Positions 7,992 through 42,100 of a DNA stretch of 64,000 bases are shown one piece after another. The number at the start of each line of letters is the position of its first letter. Position 1 is the first letter of the stretch. The position numbers and the translations under genes are program-made. The notes beneath the pieces are model-generated. The model did not search any database and had not been told where the DNA came from. It saw only the letters and a list, made by a program, of their open reading frames with translations. The stretch is from contig CM020618.1 in the NCBI GenBank assembly GCA_009829735.1, positions 6,384,882 to 6,448,881 of the forward strand, written 5' to 3'. The DNA is from Pyropia yezoensis. Taxonomy: Eukaryota; Rhodophyta; Bangiophyceae; Bangiales; Bangiaceae.

Positions 7992-8036
<45 letters not shown>

Positions 8037-9502
8037 GGTGGCGGCGGCAGAGGGCACCAACCGCCAGCCGCGGCCCAGGCGGGGGACCAGCCGCCGCCAG
8101 AGGGGGGGCGGGGGAGGGGGGGGGGGGGGGGTGGGGGGAGCGCGGCTGTGCCGGCACCGTAGGCAGGCAACACGGAGGGGGCGGTCGCACGGAGCGGGCG
8201 CCGGCGGGCGCCGGGCGGTGGTCGCGGGCGGTACGGTACCCGGGGAAGGGCAGCCCCGCGTGGCGGAAGGGAGGCGGGAGGGGGCCACGGGGGGGGGGTG
8301 GGGGGGGGGGGGTGGGGGAGGCAGGCCGGGGCGCCGCGAGCCCCCCCCGGGGGGGGGGGGGGACCAGCGCCCCCATCTCCCCCCCCCCCCCCGCGGGGAG
8401 GGGCCTGAGCGGTGGCGGCGGCCCGAGGCGCAGGGCGCGCTGGGGATGTGGCTGCGCCTGGCGATGCAAAAGGCGGGCCTGCCGTCGACCAATCGGGGGG
8501 TGCCAGGTCCACAGGCGCGCGGGCGGCCAGGGTTTTTCTCTTTTTTTTGCGGCTCTCTCGCGGTGCAGAGGCGGCGCGGGCGGTGGCGGCGGTTTCGGGC
8601 CGCGCGGGGTCTCGGCCAGGGTGGGGGGGGGGGGGGGGTGGTGGTGGCGGGCCAGAGCGTCTGTGCAATGATGAGGGGATGCAATGAGGGGAAAAGGAAG
8701 GAGAGGAGTTGGAGGGGGGGGGGGGGGGGGGGGGGGTGGGGTGGGGTGGGGTGGGTGGGGGGGAAAGGGTGCAACACAGGCCACAGGGGGGTGGGGGGAG
8801 GGGTGGGGGGGGGGGGGGGGGGGGGGGGGGGCGGTGTGGAGGTGGTGGTGGCGGCGGTGCCCGCCCGTGCGCGCATGCGCCGCACCCGGCAGAAGGATGG
8901 GGATCCGTGGCGTGGCGGCGGCGGTGGGGCGGAGCGTCGGCGGCAACGGGACGTGGGGGGGACGGGGCGGGGAGGGGCGGCGCGGCCGACGCCAATGGGG
9001 CAACAGCGGCGTGCCGCGGATCGGATGAATGGGGGGCGGGGGGGGGGGGGTGGAGGGATGGGGGTGGCCACGGAGGGGGCCCGGCCCAATGTACATATAC
9101 ATACTCCACGGGGGGGGGAGGGGGGGGGTGTGTCAGGAGCATCCTGTCCTGATGGCGCGGGGGGGGAGGGGAGACCGTCGCCGCTGGGCGTAGGTAGAGG
9201 GGGGGGGGGGGGTGGCTACCACGGTGTGGGGTGGGAGCGAGGCGGCTGCCAATAATGACGGCAGCTGTGGGGACGCACCCGTCCCGCTGCGCAGACCATA
9301 GACCCATCATTGGTGGGGGAAAAAAAGAGCGGCCACTCCTTTTTTTTTTTATCCCACGTCCCCCCCGCTCTAACGGGCACGCCGCTCTCCCCCCCCCCCC
9401 ACCCCCCCCCCCCCCCTTCCCCGCCCGCCCTTCCCCCCTCCCTACATCCTGCCCTCCCATCCCACCATCCGGATTCCCGCCGCCGCCCGCCGCGCCGCCC
9501 GC
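7530..9502. other. G-run-rich spacer, no supported gene
   Basis: Dense G homopolymers and GGC/GGT repeats. Long Pro/Gly frames on both strands are composition artefacts. Near 9088-9106 there is a TGTACATATACATACTCC-like patch (read on +), about 400 bp past the stop of the minus-strand secreted-protein gene, and an A-rich stretch at 9320-9327. Either could belong to that gene's 3' UTR. Confidence 0.4.
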
Positions 9503-11479
9503 CTAGGCGGTCGGCCCACACGGGGACGTGCACACCAGCTGGTGGCAGCGGTAGGGCGCGTCGCCGCCAGCCGCCGGGCGGCTGGCAGGGCCAACGGCAC
9601 CCGCCTCGGCGCGCGGCGTCGGCGCGCGTCCACCACCCCCACCACCACCGCCGCCGCCGGTGCCGCCGGTGGGGGTGGGGGTGGGGGTGGGGGTGGTGGG
9701 GGGGGGGGGGGGGGGGGGGGGCGTCGGCGCCGCCCCGTCGGTCGCGCACGGGAGCACCGACGGCACCCAGGCGGGCGCGCAGACGGCCTTGCACGCCCCC
9801 GCCCCGCCCCGTGGGGGCGGCCGCCGCGGCCGCCGCGGCGCCGCGTCGGCGGGGGCGTCCCAGTGGCGGCGGCGGCCGCCGCCGCCACCCCCACCCCCAC
9901 CCCCACCGCCGCCGCCGCCACGCGTTGGCGGTGGCGGCCCGGCGGGGGGCGGCGGCGCAGACGGGGCGGGCGTGGCGGCGGCCGCCGACGGCTCGGCGGG
10001 GGGCTCGGTCGCGGCCACCGGGGCCGCCGCCGCCGCCGCACCCGCCGCCGTCGACGGGTCGTCGGCGGCCGGCGCGTCGGTCCCCGCCGGCCACCCGCCG
10101 TCGGCGGCGTCGGCAATGTCGGGGACGTTGGTCGGGGCGGGGGCGTCGGCCTCCCAGACGCCGCCGCCGCCCGCGTCGCCGCCCCCATAGGGGCTGGCCG
10201 TGCCGGCGGCGGCGGCGGCGGCGGTGGCGGCGCCCGCCGCACCGGCGGCCGTGGTGGCTTGCCCGTCTGACCCGCCAGCGCCGTCGGCGGTGGCGTCGTC
10301 CGTGGGGGGGTCGGCGGCCATGACCGCGTCGGACGCGTACGACGCGCGGCCGCCGCGGGTCGGCATGGTCAGCGACGGCGCCGCGGGCGCCACGGGCGCG
10401 TTGGCCGCCGCCTCGCCGGCCTCGTCAGCCTCATCGTCGGTGGCCTCGGCAGCAGCGCCGGCGGCGTCGTCGTCGTCCGTCTGCGCCGCAGCGTCGGCCT
10501 CGTCGACGTCGGTCTGGTCCGCGGCGTCGGCCGCTTCGTCGTCCGTATCGTCTGCAGCGTCGGCGTCGGCGGCGGCAGCAGCAGCAGCGTCAGCAGCCTT
10601 GACAGCGTCGGACGCGTACGGCGCGCGGCCGCCGCGGGTGGGCATGGTCAACGACGGCCCCGCGGGCGCGTCGGCCCCCGCCCCGGCGGCACTGTCGGCC
10701 CCGTCGGCGGCAGCGTCGGCAGCCACGACAGCGTCAGACGCGTACGACGCACGGCCGCCGCGGGTGGGCGCGGTCAGCGATGGCGCCGCGGCCGCAGCGG
10801 GGCCCGCCTCGCCCACAGCGTCGGCATCATCGTCGTCAGTCTCATCCGCAGTGGCAGCGTCGGCCTCATCGTCGTCGGTCTGGTCGGCCTCGTCGGCGGC
10901 GGGGTCGCCAGCCATTACGGCGTCTGACGCATACGACGCACGGCCACCGCTGGTGGGCATGGTCAACGATGCCCCCGACGGTGCGTCGGCGGCTGCCTCC
11001 TCCGCATTGTTGGCCTCATCGTCGTCGGTCTCTTTGGCAGCGACCTCTTCCTCGTCGGCGGCGGCGGCGTCAGCGGCCGAAACGGCGTCTGACGCGTACG
11101 GCGCGCGGCCGCCGCGGGTGGGCGCCGTCAGCCCTGGCGCCGCGCGCGCCCGGGCGCGCGCCTCGCCGGCAGGGGCGGCGGCGCCCTTGCGCCCGGGCAC
11201 GTCGCTGGCTGGGGCGCCCGCGGCGGCGTCACCGCCCCCCTTCTGCTTGGCCGCCCCGTCGGCCGCGCGCGCCCGCTGGTTCATTGCGTCCCACGCGGCA
11301 ACGGCGGGGGTGGGCTGGAAGACCCCGTCCCCGTCGCTGCCGCCAGCCGCCGCCCCCACCGCCGGTGGCGGCGCCGTGCGGGGGGTCGGCACCGCCGAGC
11401 CGGGCGCCGCAACCGCAACGACGCTGGCGGTGAGGGCGAGCGCCGTCACCAGCAGCGCCCCACGCCGGACAGGCGCCAT
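9503..11479 (-). CDS. Secreted protein with five TRGGRA-YASDAV repeats
   Basis: A 658-residue protein I cannot assign to a known family. ATG 11479 is followed by a basic start and a hydrophobic stretch (VRRGALLVTALALTASVVAVAA), a clear signal peptide, so it is exported. Residues ~112-385 hold five copies of an 18-residue motif, consensus SLTxPTRGGRAxYASDAV, near residues 115, 170, 233, 275 and 368. They are separated by Ala/Asp/Glu-rich acidic spacers of 40-95 residues. Then come Ala/Pro/Gly-rich segments and a C-terminal part with six or seven cysteines (GACKAVCAPAW..., YRCHQLVCTSPCG). The frame stays open upstream to 12997, but that part is basic low complexity. The repeats vary synonymously while the peptide is kept, suggesting selection on the protein. 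It may be a cell-wall component or a multi-copy peptide precursor; both are guesses. Confidence 0.75.
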   Translation of the reverse strand: MAPVRRGALLVTALALTASVVAVAAPGSAVPTPRTAPPPAVGAAAGGSDGDGVFQPTPAVAAWDAMNQRARAADGAAKQKGGGDAAAGAPASDVPGRKGAAAPAGEARARARAAPGLTAPTRGGRAPYASDAVSAADAAAADEEEVAAKETDDDEANNAEEAAADAPSGASLTMPTSGGRASYASDAVMAGDPAADEADQTDDDEADAATADETDDDDADAVGEAGPAAAAAPSLTAPTRGGRASYASDAVVAADAAADGADSAAGAGADAPAGPSLTMPTRGGRAPYASDAVKAADAAAAAAADADAADDTDDEAADAADQTDVDEADAAAQTDDDDAAGAAAEATDDEADEAGEAAANAPVAPAAPSLTMPTRGGRASYASDAVMAADPPTDDATADGAGGSDGQATTAAGAAGAATAAAAAAGTASPYGGGDAGGGGVWEADAPAPTNVPDIADAADGGWPAGTDAPAADDPSTAAGAAAAAAPVAATEPPAEPSAAAATPAPSAPPPPAGPPPPTRGGGGGGGGGGGGGGGRRRHWDAPADAAPRRPRRPPPRGGAGACKAVCAPAWVPSVLPCATDGAAPTPPPPPPPPTTPTPTPTPTGGTGGGGGGGGGGRAPTPRAEAGAVGPASRPAAGGDAPYRCHQLVCTSPCGPTA

Positions 11480-13290
11480 GGCGGCTACCGGTGGAGGGGG
11501 GGGGACAGAAGGGATGGTGTCAAGGGGATGGGGGGGGGGTGGGGGGGGAGCAAGGCGGTGGGGGGGGCGTTCCAGAGCACAGCCCGTGTGGGGCGGGACC
11601 GCGGGAACGAGGAAGACCGCCACGGGGGGCTGTGTGGAAGCGGCGGCGCGCAGCTGCCGGCCCCGCAGGCGGCGCCTTCTTGTACCAATCCCACCCCCGG
11701 GTGGTCGGGTGCTCCACGCAGGGGGACGCGTGCCCCAGCCCCGTGCGCCCACCCCCACCCCCACACCCCCACCGCCGCCACCCTCCTTCCGCTCGCCGTG
11801 TCGCCGGGCGCAGGACGGCATTGCCGCCGCGTGTTCCGCCCACCCCCCTTCCCCCCCCCCCCCCTCTGCCCACCTCCGCCCCCCCACTCGCCCCGCCCGT
11901 GTGCCCCATTGCCGCCGTCCTCGCTGGCCGCCACGGCCGTCGCGACCCGCCCACGTGGGGTTCCGACGCGCCGCCGCGGCCGCGCCTACCCCGGCGGGAC
12001 GGCAGCGGCGGCGGCGTCGTCCCCGCTCCGGGGGCGGAGGCGCCCCCCCCCCCCGGGGGTGGGGCCGCAGGCCGTATTGACCAGAAATACATATGGGGGG
12101 GGGGGGGTGGCGCAGAGGGGTGGCGGGCAGGGGTGGGGACGGGGGGCGGCAAAGGGGTGCGGCGGCGGCGGCCCCCAAACAGGGAGACGCCCGACCGTGA
12201 CGCCGCCGCCGCCTACATCGAGGGTGGGTCGCGGCGGGGACGCAGACACCCCCCCCCCCGCCGCACGCACCGTCTGCAGAGGGGGCGCGGCGATTTTTTT
12301 TCTTGGCAGCCCCCCGCCGCCGCGCCTGGTCAGCCCGCTGGGCGCAGCGGTCGCGAGATTGGTACCCAATACGGTGCAGCGCTGGAATTGGGGGTTCAAA
12401 AAACAGGGAGCGCGCGGGTGCGTCACGCGGTCGCCCGCGCGAAAATCCCGCTGCCAGCGTGCGTGCCAGCATCGACGCGGGGGCGGCCAGCCCCTGGGGC
12501 ACAGCTCTACAGCGTGCCAACGCGGCTTTGGCCTTGGTGCCTTCAGTAGGGCGGGGCACACTGCTTGGTGGACATGGACTGGCCCCCGCCCTCGCCCCCC
12601 ATACAAACGGTCTGTCGTGGGGTGCACCCACCACCCGTGGTGGTGCCGCCGACCGTGGCGGGCGGCCAGAGGGGGGCGCCCCCGCTGGGCTCGCTGCGCG
12701 CATGGAAGCAGGGTCCTCCCCTCGATAGCGGATCACTACCGACGGGCCCAGACGGTAGAGTGGGTTGTCCAGCTCCAGCGAGCAGACAGTCGGTGGCGCG
12801 CCACTATTGCGTGGGGCACCCCGCGTCCGCCGCGCCCGCTCGCGCCGCGTGAGACCGCACTTACACCTTCCAGTTGTGGGCAAGGGGGGGGGGGGGAGGG
12901 GGTGGGCGACGAGACAGTGGGAGTGGCGGTGGGGGTGGTCATGGGGGCGGCGGTGACGGCCAGCTGCGGGCGGCGGCGTTGTTTCCCTTCCAGACATACT
13001 GTACTCTTGTGCTGTCTACATACAGGACATACGTACTGTACAATACGTACTGTACTGTATGTATGCACAGTACACATGTACATATGTATGCATACATGGT
13101 CCACAGCCACTCCAACGCGGCGGTACATGCCACTGGTCATCGACGAGTGGGTGTACTGCCGCACCGGAGTCGCATGTGCGGACTTGCAGGGACGACGCCG
13201 CAGGCTCATCAATTCGTACACTTATCTCAGAATGAGTGTCAACTACACTTTGTGCCCCTTCTGTGACGTTCTGGAGCTCCAATACGGAAA
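11480..13290. other. Spacer with TAC-rich palindromic patch
   Basis: GC-rich up to about 12960 with no convincing gene. From 13015 to 13100 the sequence changes to TAC/GTA-rich DNA: direct copies of ACGTACTGTAC, then a 14-bp perfect palindrome ATGTATGCATACAT at 13084-13097. The GTACTGTATGTA word recurs at several other intergenic places in the window. Confidence 0.5.
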
Positions 13291-38668: not shown

Positions 38669-40768
38669 TCAACGGTGAACCTTGAGGAGTTGCCTAAAGA
38701 TCAGACGGACCGTGTTGGAGAGCTTGGTCTTGTTGTACAAATCGCCGGCGCGGGCGATGCTCTCTGCAAAGGTCGGGTACGGGTGGATGACACCAGCAAG
38801 CGCACCGAGGCCCATCCCCGCCTGCATCGCCACGGTGATCTCAGAGATCATGTCACCCGCCTCAGGCCCGACGATTGTAGCGCCCAGAATACGGTCCGAG
38901 CCCTTCTCCACCAGGATACGAACGACGCCGTCGGTCTCGCCCTCAAGAATAGCACGGTCATTGTGCTCAAACGACTTCTCATACGTCACGTACTCCTTGC
39001 CAGCCGCCTTGATGTCCGCCGCATAAAGCCCCACATGCGCAATCTCGGGGGAGGTAAACGTCGCCCACGGGATAAGAAGGTTAGAAAACTTGGATTTGCC
39101 AAAGAACAAGGCGTTACGGATGACCATCCGCGCCTGTGCGTCAGCCGAGTGGGTGAACTGGTACTTGCCTGTCACGTCCCCAACGCCGAAAATGTTGGGG
39201 TTGGACGTCTGAAGCTGGTCATTAAGAGTGAGGCCCTTGCGCACATCGACGTTCACCCCGGCCAAGCCCAAGTCGAAGCCTGTCACGTTCGGCTGCCGGC
39301 CGGCCGCCACCAAGATGGCGTCGCACAGGAACTCAGACGTCACGTCCGTGCCGTGAAGCCCGGCCTCGACGGTCGTCAGTTTCATTTCTTGGAAGCCGAG
39401 GTCGTCCTTGACGCCTGTCAGCTCCACAGACACATACTTGGTGACTCTCAGCCGGAACTGAACACCGTCTGTGACCATCTGCTGCTTAATGATGGCGGCC
39501 AAGTCCTGGTCCTCCTTGGGCAACACCTTACCCGACCGCCCAAACATGGTCACCGTCGAGCCCAACCGCTGCATGGCCTGTGCCAGCTCCATCCCAATCA
39601 CCCCCGTCCCGATAACAAGCAGCCGCCGCGGCATCTTGGTGAGGTTCCATATACTCTCGTTGGTGGCAATCACAGGCGCGGTCGCGTCGCCACCACTCCA
39701 GCCGACGGCCAGCTCCTTCATCCCAGGGATCGGCAGCAGCTGTGGGTAGCCGCCAGTGGCCACAACGGCCTTAGCAAACCGCAGCGTCTGGCCGTTGACG
39801 ACCAATGTGTTGGGTCCCGTGAACTTGCCATACCCTAGGTAGACATCACAGCCCAGCTGGGCCGAGAAGCGGGCCGCCGAGTCGTTCTCGGAAATCTTAG
39901 CCCGCAGTCGCCGCAGCCGCGTCATGACCGCCCCGAAGTCAATCTCCACCTCGCCCTTGATGGAAATGCCCATGTCCGCCAGCCGCTTCGTATTCTTCAG
40001 GTCCGATGCCGCCCGCGCCGCGCGGATCAGTGCCTTCGACGGCACGCACCCAACGTTGAGGCAGTCCCCGCCAAGCATGTGAGCCTCAACCAACGCCACC
40101 TTGGCGCCTACACCCGCCGCGCCAGCGGCGGTGACCAGACCGCCGGCGCCAGCACCCAACACGAGCAGGTGGTAGGTGAAGCCGTCGGAGGGAGTCGGGT
40201 CCACCCACGACGCTGGGTGCACATTGTTAAGCAGCGCCACGTTGTGCTCGTCCAGTGGCGCCACAGCGGTTGCCACGTGCACAGACGAGGACGGCACGGA
40301 CGACAGGTCAGGCCCAGGGAAGGAACCTGTCAGGCCCGCCACCGTGCTCGAAGTACTATCGGTGAGGTAATCAGACCACGACACACGGGCGCCATCGGCC
40401 CCGCGCGCGGTTGCGCCGCGCTCGTCATTGACAAAGCGATAAAATAGGGGACCATTCTTGAGCGGATGCTCCCGGAGGACATGCTCAAAGACACCATGAG
40501 CCATGAGCCCATTACCAACGGTCAGCGCATCGTCCACACTGTTGATGTCGTCCAGAGTGCGTAGCGCGCGCACCGCATCCTCGCCCGTGAAGCAGGACTT
40601 GTACGTCTTCAGGTGATACGTGCGGTCCTTGATCACCACCTTGCTGCGAAAGGAGGAGACCAGCTTGTCAAAGGCCAAGTCTGACGCCTTATCCATCTCT
40701 GATCGCGAGCGGATAGTCCGAAGCGACTCAAACTCGGCAGCACCGCTGGCGGAGGAGCTCTCAGCCAT
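38669..40768 (-). CDS. DEP domain fused to FAD/NAD(P) disulfide reductase
   Basis: A 699-aa fusion. Residues ~28-110 form a DEP domain (KDRTYHLKTYKSCFTGEDAVR, DALTVGNGLMAHGVFEHV, LFYRFV). From ~190 a class-I pyridine nucleotide-disulfide oxidoreductase follows: FAD-binding LLVLGAGAGGLVTA, redox-active GGDCLNVGCVPSKAL, NAD(P)-binding LLVIGTGVIGMELAQ, the ATG-type VVATGG, second FAD motif NIFGVGDVTG, and a C-terminal dimerisation domain ending near HPYPTFAE. This is the mercuric-reductase / dihydrolipoamide-dehydrogenase-like group; the extra N-terminal metal-binding and C-terminal Cys pair of MerA are not seen, so the substrate is unknown. ATG 40768 is chosen; the frame is open upstream to 41266 and could add a targeting sequence. 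No intron is needed. The paralogous stand-alone DEP gene lies 2.2 kb beyond its 3' end. Confidence 0.85.
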   Translation of the reverse strand: MAESSSASGAAEFESLRTIRSRSEMDKASDLAFDKLVSSFRSKVVIKDRTYHLKTYKSCFTGEDAVRALRTLDDINSVDDALTVGNGLMAHGVFEHVLREHPLKNGPLFYRFVNDERGATARGADGARVSWSDYLTDSTSSTVAGLTGSFPGPDLSSVPSSSVHVATAVAPLDEHNVALLNNVHPASWVDPTPSDGFTYHLLVLGAGAGGLVTAAGAAGVGAKVALVEAHMLGGDCLNVGCVPSKALIRAARAASDLKNTKRLADMGISIKGEVEIDFGAVMTRLRRLRAKISENDSAARFSAQLGCDVYLGYGKFTGPNTLVVNGQTLRFAKAVVATGGYPQLLPIPGMKELAVGWSGGDATAPVIATNESIWNLTKMPRRLLVIGTGVIGMELAQAMQRLGSTVTMFGRSGKVLPKEDQDLAAIIKQQMVTDGVQFRLRVTKYVSVELTGVKDDLGFQEMKLTTVEAGLHGTDVTSEFLCDAILVAAGRQPNVTGFDLGLAGVNVDVRKGLTLNDQLQTSNPNIFGVGDVTGKYQFTHSADAQARMVIRNALFFGKSKFSNLLIPWATFTSPEIAHVGLYAADIKAAGKEYVTYEKSFEHNDRAILEGETDGVVRILVEKGSDRILGATIVGPEAGDMISEITVAMQAGMGLGALAGVIHPYPTFAESIARAGDLYNKTKLSNTVRLIFRQLLKVHR

Positions 40769-42100
40769 GGACGGAAGGCAACGACGCCAAGCCGGGGCAG
40801 GGGACGCGGCTACCCGGGGACGGCGCCGGCGGGTATGGATGCAGAAAGGCAGGCGGGCAGGAGCGCGCAGCGGGTGGGACAGCCCAGCCTGGCTGGCGCG
40901 GCTCGCCCCGGGGCCAGCGGGGACAACAAACGCGGCGGAATAAATCCACTGCACCTTCGCCCCGTGTGGCACACTGTACGAGCCGCTCACGGGGTCGGTG
41001 GGAAAATGGGCGGCGATATGGGGCAGCGGCCAAAACGGGCGGCCGGCCGGGGCGGCGTCGGTCACAGCGTGCGGAGTCGAGGATAACGACGCGAGCCGCG
41101 TGATGTGCGATGGATGGCACCGCGGGTGAGAAATAAACATGCCCACGACGTCGTGCGCAGAGGGGCACGTCCCAAGTGGCGGTCCCCGTCCAGGCAGTCG
41201 AAACCGCGGGATTGAGTCAGCTGCATCCGATCGCGCCTCGAAGGCACCACCCCGCCACTGGACCACGACGCCGTCCGACGCTGGCTACGTCAGTGCAACC
41301 ACAGCTCTCCCTGCAGCAGCAGAGCCCTACTTGCCGCCCACCCTCGCAGTCGCGTCGAAACTGGGCTCAACCAGCATTTCTACACTGTGCGCAAGGCGCT
41401 CCCGGCTGGACTGCAGTTCGGCTTCTTCAGTCTCGAGTGGACTCATGAGCTGCGGATCAACTGCATTCCAGTTTGACTTCGTTCTGCAATTCTCAAGCTT
41501 TCTTCAAACAACACGGTGGTAGCCGGATTTCTACGTTTGAAGCGCCGCTGAGATCATCCCGAACCAAGCCCTGTCACCTCCATGGGTACATTCACACTCA
41601 CACACGTGCTCATTCACCCCTCCTCCGTCTCGTCCCTCAACATTGTTCGCCGCGAGCGAAAATGAACACGTGTCGTGTGGCGCGCGTACAAATAGGTAGA
41701 TCCGGGAGGATGGGCAGCCACGACCGCCACTGCACAGCTGTCGGAAGCGGGCTCGACCGGCGACATCCCATGTGGGTGCGTGTGTGGGCACGCCCGCTGT
41801 GGTGGACCCACCACTAACAAACGATCGCCGCTCCTCCCTTCTCCTCCTCCGCCTGTCCAGATACCTCCGCCGTCTTCGCACTTTTCACTATCCTCCCTGC
41901 GCAAGCAACCTGTGCGCATATGTGTCGTCTTTGTTGGGCGCAACGAAGTGCCTGTTTTGTACCACGGGTAAGCGTCATTCCTCTCTTCCTCTGACTATCA
42001 GTTTCATCCGCGACCCAGGCGAATAGGTGTGAACGCAGGCAAACGTATGTCTATGTACAGTACACCAGAACCCGAAAATTGTTGTATGGCAGGAGGACAT
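40769..42100. other. Spacer with TGTACAGTACA element
   Basis: No gene is supported. At 42052-42065 lies ATGTACAGTACACC, about 40-50 bp beyond the stop of the minus-strand gene at 42101, hence probably in its 3' UTR. Confidence 0.4.

Follow-up and report, generated by a model that had tools for sequence, protein, structure and literature searches.

A minus-strand gene of the red seaweed Pyropia yezoensis, located in the 64-kb window analysed here (the whole stretch of DNA, 64,000 nucleotides), appears to code for a probably nuclear-encoded, exported, floppy and acidic protein in which one 18-residue peptide occurs five times. As translated, its layout is that of a multivalent chain, with conserved short sites strung along a variable acidic tether. 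Our leading interpretation, held tentatively, is that the product serves as a secreted, disordered, acidic multivalent scaffold of the red seaweed cell wall or extracellular matrix.

Five units on an acidic chain

The features of the gene, in the order of the protein, are as follows.

9503..11479, minus strand: 658-codon open reading frame and its stop codon, with 11479 proposed as the first ATG, context GCCGCCATGG
11393..11479, minus strand: signal-peptide-like N-terminus MAPVRRGALLVTALALTASVVAVAAPGSA, residues 1-29 (cleavage site placed by eye; comparison with N-termini from the genome)
11237..11308, minus strand: short predicted helix PAVAAWDAMNQRARAADGAAKQKG, residues 58-81, the best-predicted part of residues 1-393 in a single-sequence model
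11081..11134, minus strand: unit 1, GLTAPTRGGRAPYASDAV, starting at residue 116 (translation and unit alignment, as for all units)
10970..11080, minus strand: acidic spacer 1, 37 aa, net charge -12 (charge count, as for spacers 2 and 3)
10916..10969, minus strand: unit 2, SLTMPTSGGRASYASDAV, starting at residue 171
10781..10915, minus strand: acidic spacer 2, 45 aa, net charge -17
10727..10780, minus strand: unit 3, SLTAPTRGGRASYASDAV, starting at residue 234
10655..10726, minus strand: acidic spacer 3, 24 aa, net charge -4
10601..10654, minus strand: unit 4, SLTMPTRGGRAPYASDAV, starting at residue 276
10376..10600, minus strand: acidic spacer 4, 75 aa, net charge -24, with TDDDEADAAAQ-like sub-repeats spaced 11, 11 and 13 residues apart
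10322..10375, minus strand: unit 5, SLTMPTRGGRASYASDAV, starting at residue 369
9503..9919, minus strand: basic tail rich in Gly and Pro, residues 521-658, containing six Cys; uncertain reading frame, with a C24 run at 9698-9721

The minus-strand frame stays open upstream to 12997, and we infer the start at 11479 from the signal peptide and from the start context GCCGCCATGG, which we take to be the Kozak consensus; the start codons of control genes match this type of context only loosely. The predicted product has a pI of about 4. Our genome searches covered 107,475,971 bases of high GC content in 11 contigs, and the loci they yielded lie on three chromosome-sized contigs (43.6, 34.3 and 29.4 Mb). 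For the published Pyropia (Neopyropia) yezoensis genome, the part of the description cited here gives 65% GC, with 71% in coding regions (PMC7423979). Many long G or C homopolymers lie around and within the gene (8620-9420; 9698-9721, 24 bases), and frames that run across them are unreliable.

The units align to the consensus [SG]LT[MA]PT[RS]GGRA[SP]YASDAV, with the same residue in all copies at 14 of the 18 positions (and at 15 of 23 columns once the flanks are included). Their most conserved stretch, GGRAxYASDAV, has a single variable position, and the first Arg of the unit is missing from unit 2. Each unit has a net charge of 0 or +1 and contains one Tyr and no Trp; unit starts are 42-93 residues apart, and the flanks are partly common to the copies (AP before, AAD after). 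Within residues 116-408, 161 pairs of 18-mers share at least 13 residues, overlapping registers counted, and the best pair shares 17, whereas 300 residue shuffles of the same stretch averaged 0.03 such pairs, with no more than 13 residues shared in the best. The five near-identical units reported by a first-pass annotation of this DNA are thus borne out. When the copies are anchored on one another, residue identity is 0.80-1.00 within the unit, climbs gradually ahead of it (0.13-0.53) and drops to 0.13-0.37 from 24 residues past the unit start, reaching the level of random spacer windows (0.23) at 24-27 residues.

The unit is unique to this gene in the genome: the back-translated core GGRAxYAxDA gave five matches in 107,475,971 bases, all of them in the gene at 9503..11479, against none for the reversed control. 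The shorter core GGRAxYA is at chance level, with 26 genome matches (the five units included) and 34 in the control. A site at C3:5867145 matches 20 bases of the unit exactly, but was set aside as it continues as unrelated sequence.

The same annotation had described the spacers as acidic and Ala/Asp/Glu-rich, and they are so: they measure 24-75 residues and carry net charges of -4 to -24. TDDDEADAAAQ-like acidic sub-repeats in 11-residue (33-base) steps make up a second repeat level within them, and the 33-base spacings in spacer 4 are also seen at the DNA level (repeat family D2). Lys and Arg are absent from spacers 2, 3 and 5, and the five dibasic sites of the protein (residues 5, 97, 536, 549 and 552) all lie outside the unit/spacer array. 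AlphaFold2, run without an alignment on residues 1-393, returned a mean pLDDT of 48.8, with 252 of the 393 residues below 50; the chain may thus be intrinsically disordered, low single-sequence pLDDT being weak evidence of this. Weak predicted helices in the spacers extend as far as the ends of units 1 and 4, and the units themselves take up no confident structure. The long helix modelled in spacer 4 has a pLDDT of about 60, and the helix PAVAAWDAMNQRARAADGAAKQKG, between the signal peptide and unit 1, rises to 85 over a 10-residue block and is possibly a binding helix.

All sequence past unit 5, the Cys tail included, is doubtful. The Cys-rich tail noted earlier stands insofar as six Cys fall in the last 96 residues, but three of them lie beyond the C24 homopolymer at 9698-9721, on whose length the frame depends, and little weight should be placed on the Cys tail. 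Another frame also scores better in codon preference: over 9503-10321 the gene's frame has -10.7 and another stop-free minus frame +2.8, and over 9503-9820 the two frames have -5.8 and +1.0. The tail model is poor (mean pLDDT 51.3).

Synonymous change and the coding strand

Changes between the units are biased towards synonymous ones. Over 10 unit pairs, NG86 gave a mean dN of 0.085, below the dS of 0.441, and the minimum number of changes comprises 12 synonymous and 6 non-synonymous ones, whereas neutral change would make 0.69-0.72 of them non-synonymous (three mutation models, P 0.0006-0.0018); a cruder count of sites, in which 8 of the 15 variable ones are third positions and one third would be expected, falls short of significance (P 0.088), and these tests are biased in that the units were picked by their residues and copies within one gene are not independent. 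The dS of 0.44 suggests that the copies are not recent, and that their residues have nevertheless been kept.

The comparison of dN with dS that the first-pass annotation proposed therefore comes out in favour of constraint, but the opposite strand gives nearly the same result. A plus-strand frame at 10200-12080 is open throughout the array and would encode TASDAYxARPPRVGxV units between Ser/Ala-rich spacers; for the same units it has a dN of 0.085 and a dS of 0.322, with minimum changes of 9 synonymous and 5 non-synonymous (P 0.003-0.008). Because the third positions of both frames coincide, synonymous bias cannot fix the strand, which therefore rests on codon preference and on the signal peptide.

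Codon preference was scored from 1,613 codons in Pfam-matched stretches of the window. Over the array it amounts to +14.4 for the minus frame as against -11.9 for the open plus frame; another plus frame reaches +10.2 but contains a stop. Over 10301-11479, which takes in the N-terminus and the array, a plus frame with three stops scores 12.0 and the minus frame 11.5. In a check of the score, the listed frame was the best of six in 4 of 4 untrained and 2 of 2 trained long open frames, the four untrained ones having no Pfam matches and negative scores and thus being presumed, not proven, genes. Furthermore, the first ATG of the plus frame adjoins the first unit that it encounters, the frame has no signal peptide, and its 3' part runs across G-runs. 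The minus strand is thus supported as the coding strand, and we regard coding by the plus frame as very unlikely. Conservation of the peptide by selection, as proposed at first pass, is likewise supported in that non-synonymous changes are fewer than under neutrality, with the caveat that this does not settle the strand.

Probable export signal and search for relatives

The protein probably enters the secretory path. Its N-terminus, MAPVRRGALLVTALALTASVVAVAAPGSA, has an Arg ahead of its hydrophobic core and lacks Phe close to the start, as is typical of the secretory kind: in all 10 usable secretory controls from the same genome (one calreticulin and nine alpha-carbonic anhydrases), Arg precedes the hydrophobic core and residues 2-10 lack Phe. 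It is unlike the usable LHC transit peptides, all three of which open directly with the hydrophobic part and carry a Phe at positions 4-6. Hydropathy by itself cannot separate secretory from plastid N-termini because the ranges overlap (2.38 for the protein; 1.95-3.02 for secretory and 1.23-2.18 for plastid controls). Inspection by eye and this comparison with 10 secretory and three plastid N-termini uphold the signal peptide recognised at first pass, and support predicted export.

Control start codons were chosen by hand, among several in L031, L032, L036 and L037. Nine of the 10 alpha-carbonic anhydrase loci (L030-L039) were usable, L035 having no Met. Among 12 LHC loci, three had a usable start (L018, L020 and L021) and eight lacked a Met in the open stretch upstream; L024, with two Met and a match that begins inside the domain, was left out, as were L040, L041, the second calreticulin match (L029) and 17 further matches without a locus.

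The alpha-carbonic anhydrase family has 29 matches in the genome, these being matches and not genes; an excerpt of the published genome description reports expanded carbonic anhydrases, with 15 copies of the alpha type (PMC7423979). Two of the matches, L038 and L039, lie about 4 kb apart in opposite orientation (C1:25367498-25368121, minus; C1:25372372-25372995, plus); both matches begin with the same 20 residues, and the two loci have signal-peptide-like starts that resemble each other. At C1:2961768-2963132 (minus), two further matches each lie in a 1394-residue open frame, apparently one frame, whose product is possibly a multi-domain enzyme.

By sequence search, the predicted protein is an orphan within Pfam, the PDB, bacterial and archaeal genomes, viral contigs and its own genome. 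Pfam membership was rejected for Root_cap (PF06830; E 0.0015, best stretch residues 365-390), with 19 bits against a curated cut-off of 27, and for Utp14, with 7.7 bits against 30.2. All 28 matches in the PDB are weak: the strongest, at E 0.011, falls in the Pro/Gly-rich part (residues 506-533), and a single one, at E 1.5, reaches into the array (residues 294-377). Both collections agree with the initial statement that the unit resembles no familiar domain. The genome itself holds no convincing paralogue, other matches to the array being at E of at least 0.14 and the next matches to the N-terminus and the tail at E 0.16 and 0.44. Near-exact cores were sought in 84,980 bacterial and archaeal species (four pattern matches) and in viral contigs (39), and none was confirmed by a procedure that is strict for a 23-residue query. 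A text search for YASDAV within one open-access paper collection gave no match, and among the titles and abstract openings listed there none concerned such a protein. Elsewhere in the window, a single open frame at 38669-41266 (minus) codes for a DEP domain followed by a complete pyridine nucleotide-disulphide oxidoreductase, a combination that we know of from nowhere else.

Possible roles of the repeated unit

A secreted scaffold of the wall or matrix would account for the parts of the protein more economically than the alternatives, although what the units bind is a guess. Each of the five units would act as a short linear site for binding or crosslinking, presenting a GGR and a Tyr; the Arg might engage sulfated galactan or a protein partner, and the Tyr could make aromatic contacts or be coupled oxidatively. 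The role of the Ala/Asp/Glu spacers would be to separate these sites and to keep them hydrated and free of aggregation, and the spacers may also bind cations. In favour of such a scaffold are the conservation of units but not of spacers, the shortfall of non-synonymous changes, the uniqueness of the core to this gene, the secretory-type N-terminus, the charge of the spacers (-4 to -24) as against that of the units (0 or +1), and the low pLDDT. It is weakened by the lack of a homologue in any collection searched, the loss of the first Arg from unit 2, the cruder synonymous count (P 0.088), the overlap of the hydropathy groups and the score of the three-stop plus frame (12.0 against 11.5 over 10301-11479).

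Conserved short segments between hydrophilic stretches are also found in dehydrin/LEA-type proteins; the seaweed protein shares this layout, but has no Pfam match to them and has a secretory start. Wall crosslinking would be compatible with one Tyr per unit and the secretory-type start. Extensins and other Pro-rich wall glycoproteins are similar in being secreted and having Tyr-bearing repeats, and a Pro/Thr-Pro stretch occurs in the tail, although this is the doubtful part. Extensins repeat a Ser followed by 3-5 Pro, with Tyr-X-Tyr in some, according to the part of PMC4769139 cited here; neither motif occurs in the translated units or spacers. Also in favour of the scaffold, sulfated agar (porphyran) is given as a matrix polymer of Porphyra species in an excerpt of PMC8307928. 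Against it, a sulfated matrix would repel so acidic a protein everywhere but at its units.

Among the alternatives, the best placed, while still unlikely, is a little-constrained low-complexity orphan that arose by repeat expansion in GC-rich DNA, with units that are alike as copies. The protein is indeed an orphan in every collection searched, its spacers and tail are Ala/Gly/Pro-rich like chance frames (27 open frames of at least 80 aa overlap 8000-13000), the 11-residue sub-repeats suggest that expansion is still going on, and the cruder selection test is in keeping with weak constraint. Opposed to this are the apparent age of the copies, whose residues have yet been kept, and the codon preference that backs the frame over the units.

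Multi-copy peptide precursors (CEP/CLE-like, yeast alpha-factor and neuropeptide precursors) combine a signal peptide, repeated short peptides and acidic spacers. The first-pass annotation had pointed out this layout, and the signal-peptide-like start, the five near-identical units and the poorly conserved acidic spacers still agree with it; the units would then be released from a secreted precursor as peptide hormones, possibly with amidation at Gly-Arg. The proposal is weakened by the lack of dibasic sites flanking the units or anywhere in the array, which argues against an animal-type precursor, by spacers that show no regular cleavage motif, and by a length far beyond that of such precursors. 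Cutting at a single Arg within the units is possible, but an amidation cut at GGR would remove the most conserved stretch, which continues past GGR. The copper monooxygenase family includes amidating enzymes among others, and its C-terminal domain has three genome matches over the curated cut-off; together with five matches to the 2OG-Fe(II) oxygenase domain, these favour no one reading over another. Given the missing cleavage sites, we consider a precursor improbable, and less likely than the scaffold.

Still less probable is an acidic cation- or ice-associated surface protein, in which the spacers, with TDDDEADAAAQ in 11-residue steps, would do the work and the units would serve as anchors. 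The regular sub-repeats of spacer 4 and the long helix predicted there would suit this role, as would the shell-living conchocelis stage, which has been proposed to use shell-released HCO3-, with support from 13C uptake from labelled CaCO3 (PMC7423979, in the part cited). The spacers, however, vary in length and sequence, and conservation sits in the units.

Least likely of all is a plastid sticker-and-spacer protein, for instance a linker of Rubisco in the pyrenoid of red algae, of which we know no example. The spacing of unit starts does fall within the 20-120 residues used in the FLIPPer search (PMC11570498, excerpt), and of the diatom PYCO1 stickers KWSPRGGS and GTGYNP the unit shares only RGG and a Tyr (PMC10288592, excerpt). 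However, the N-terminus is secretory rather than plastid, as judged against only three plastid controls, the units have no Trp, and the pI of about 4 contrasts with the 10.03 stated for PYCO1 in the same excerpt; N-terminus and charge thus make a linker unlikely. The cited portion of PMC10473226 names no red algal linker protein. Compared by description and not by sequence, EPYC1, CsLinker and PYCO1 resemble the seaweed protein in their short conserved motifs and 20-120 residue spacing, and perhaps in a disordered chain, but they are plastid proteins, and PYCO1 is basic, whereas the seaweed protein is acidic and has a secretory start.

To our knowledge, the cell-wall proteins and secreted peptides of red algae are poorly known. 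A bolder proposal, which we consider a long shot, is that the unit represents a new red algal binding module: either the first multi-copy secreted peptide signal of the lineage or a new matrix sticker that organises the sulfated-galactan wall, in both cases within a two-level repeat of 18-residue sites and 11-residue acidic spacers. As a conserved peptide confined to a single gene, the unit is a concrete object to tag, purify and test. Were it to act as a sticker in the matrix, it would reveal the organisation of a polysaccharide wall in which little protein is known; were it released from a peptide precursor, it would open up cell-to-cell signalling in red algae.
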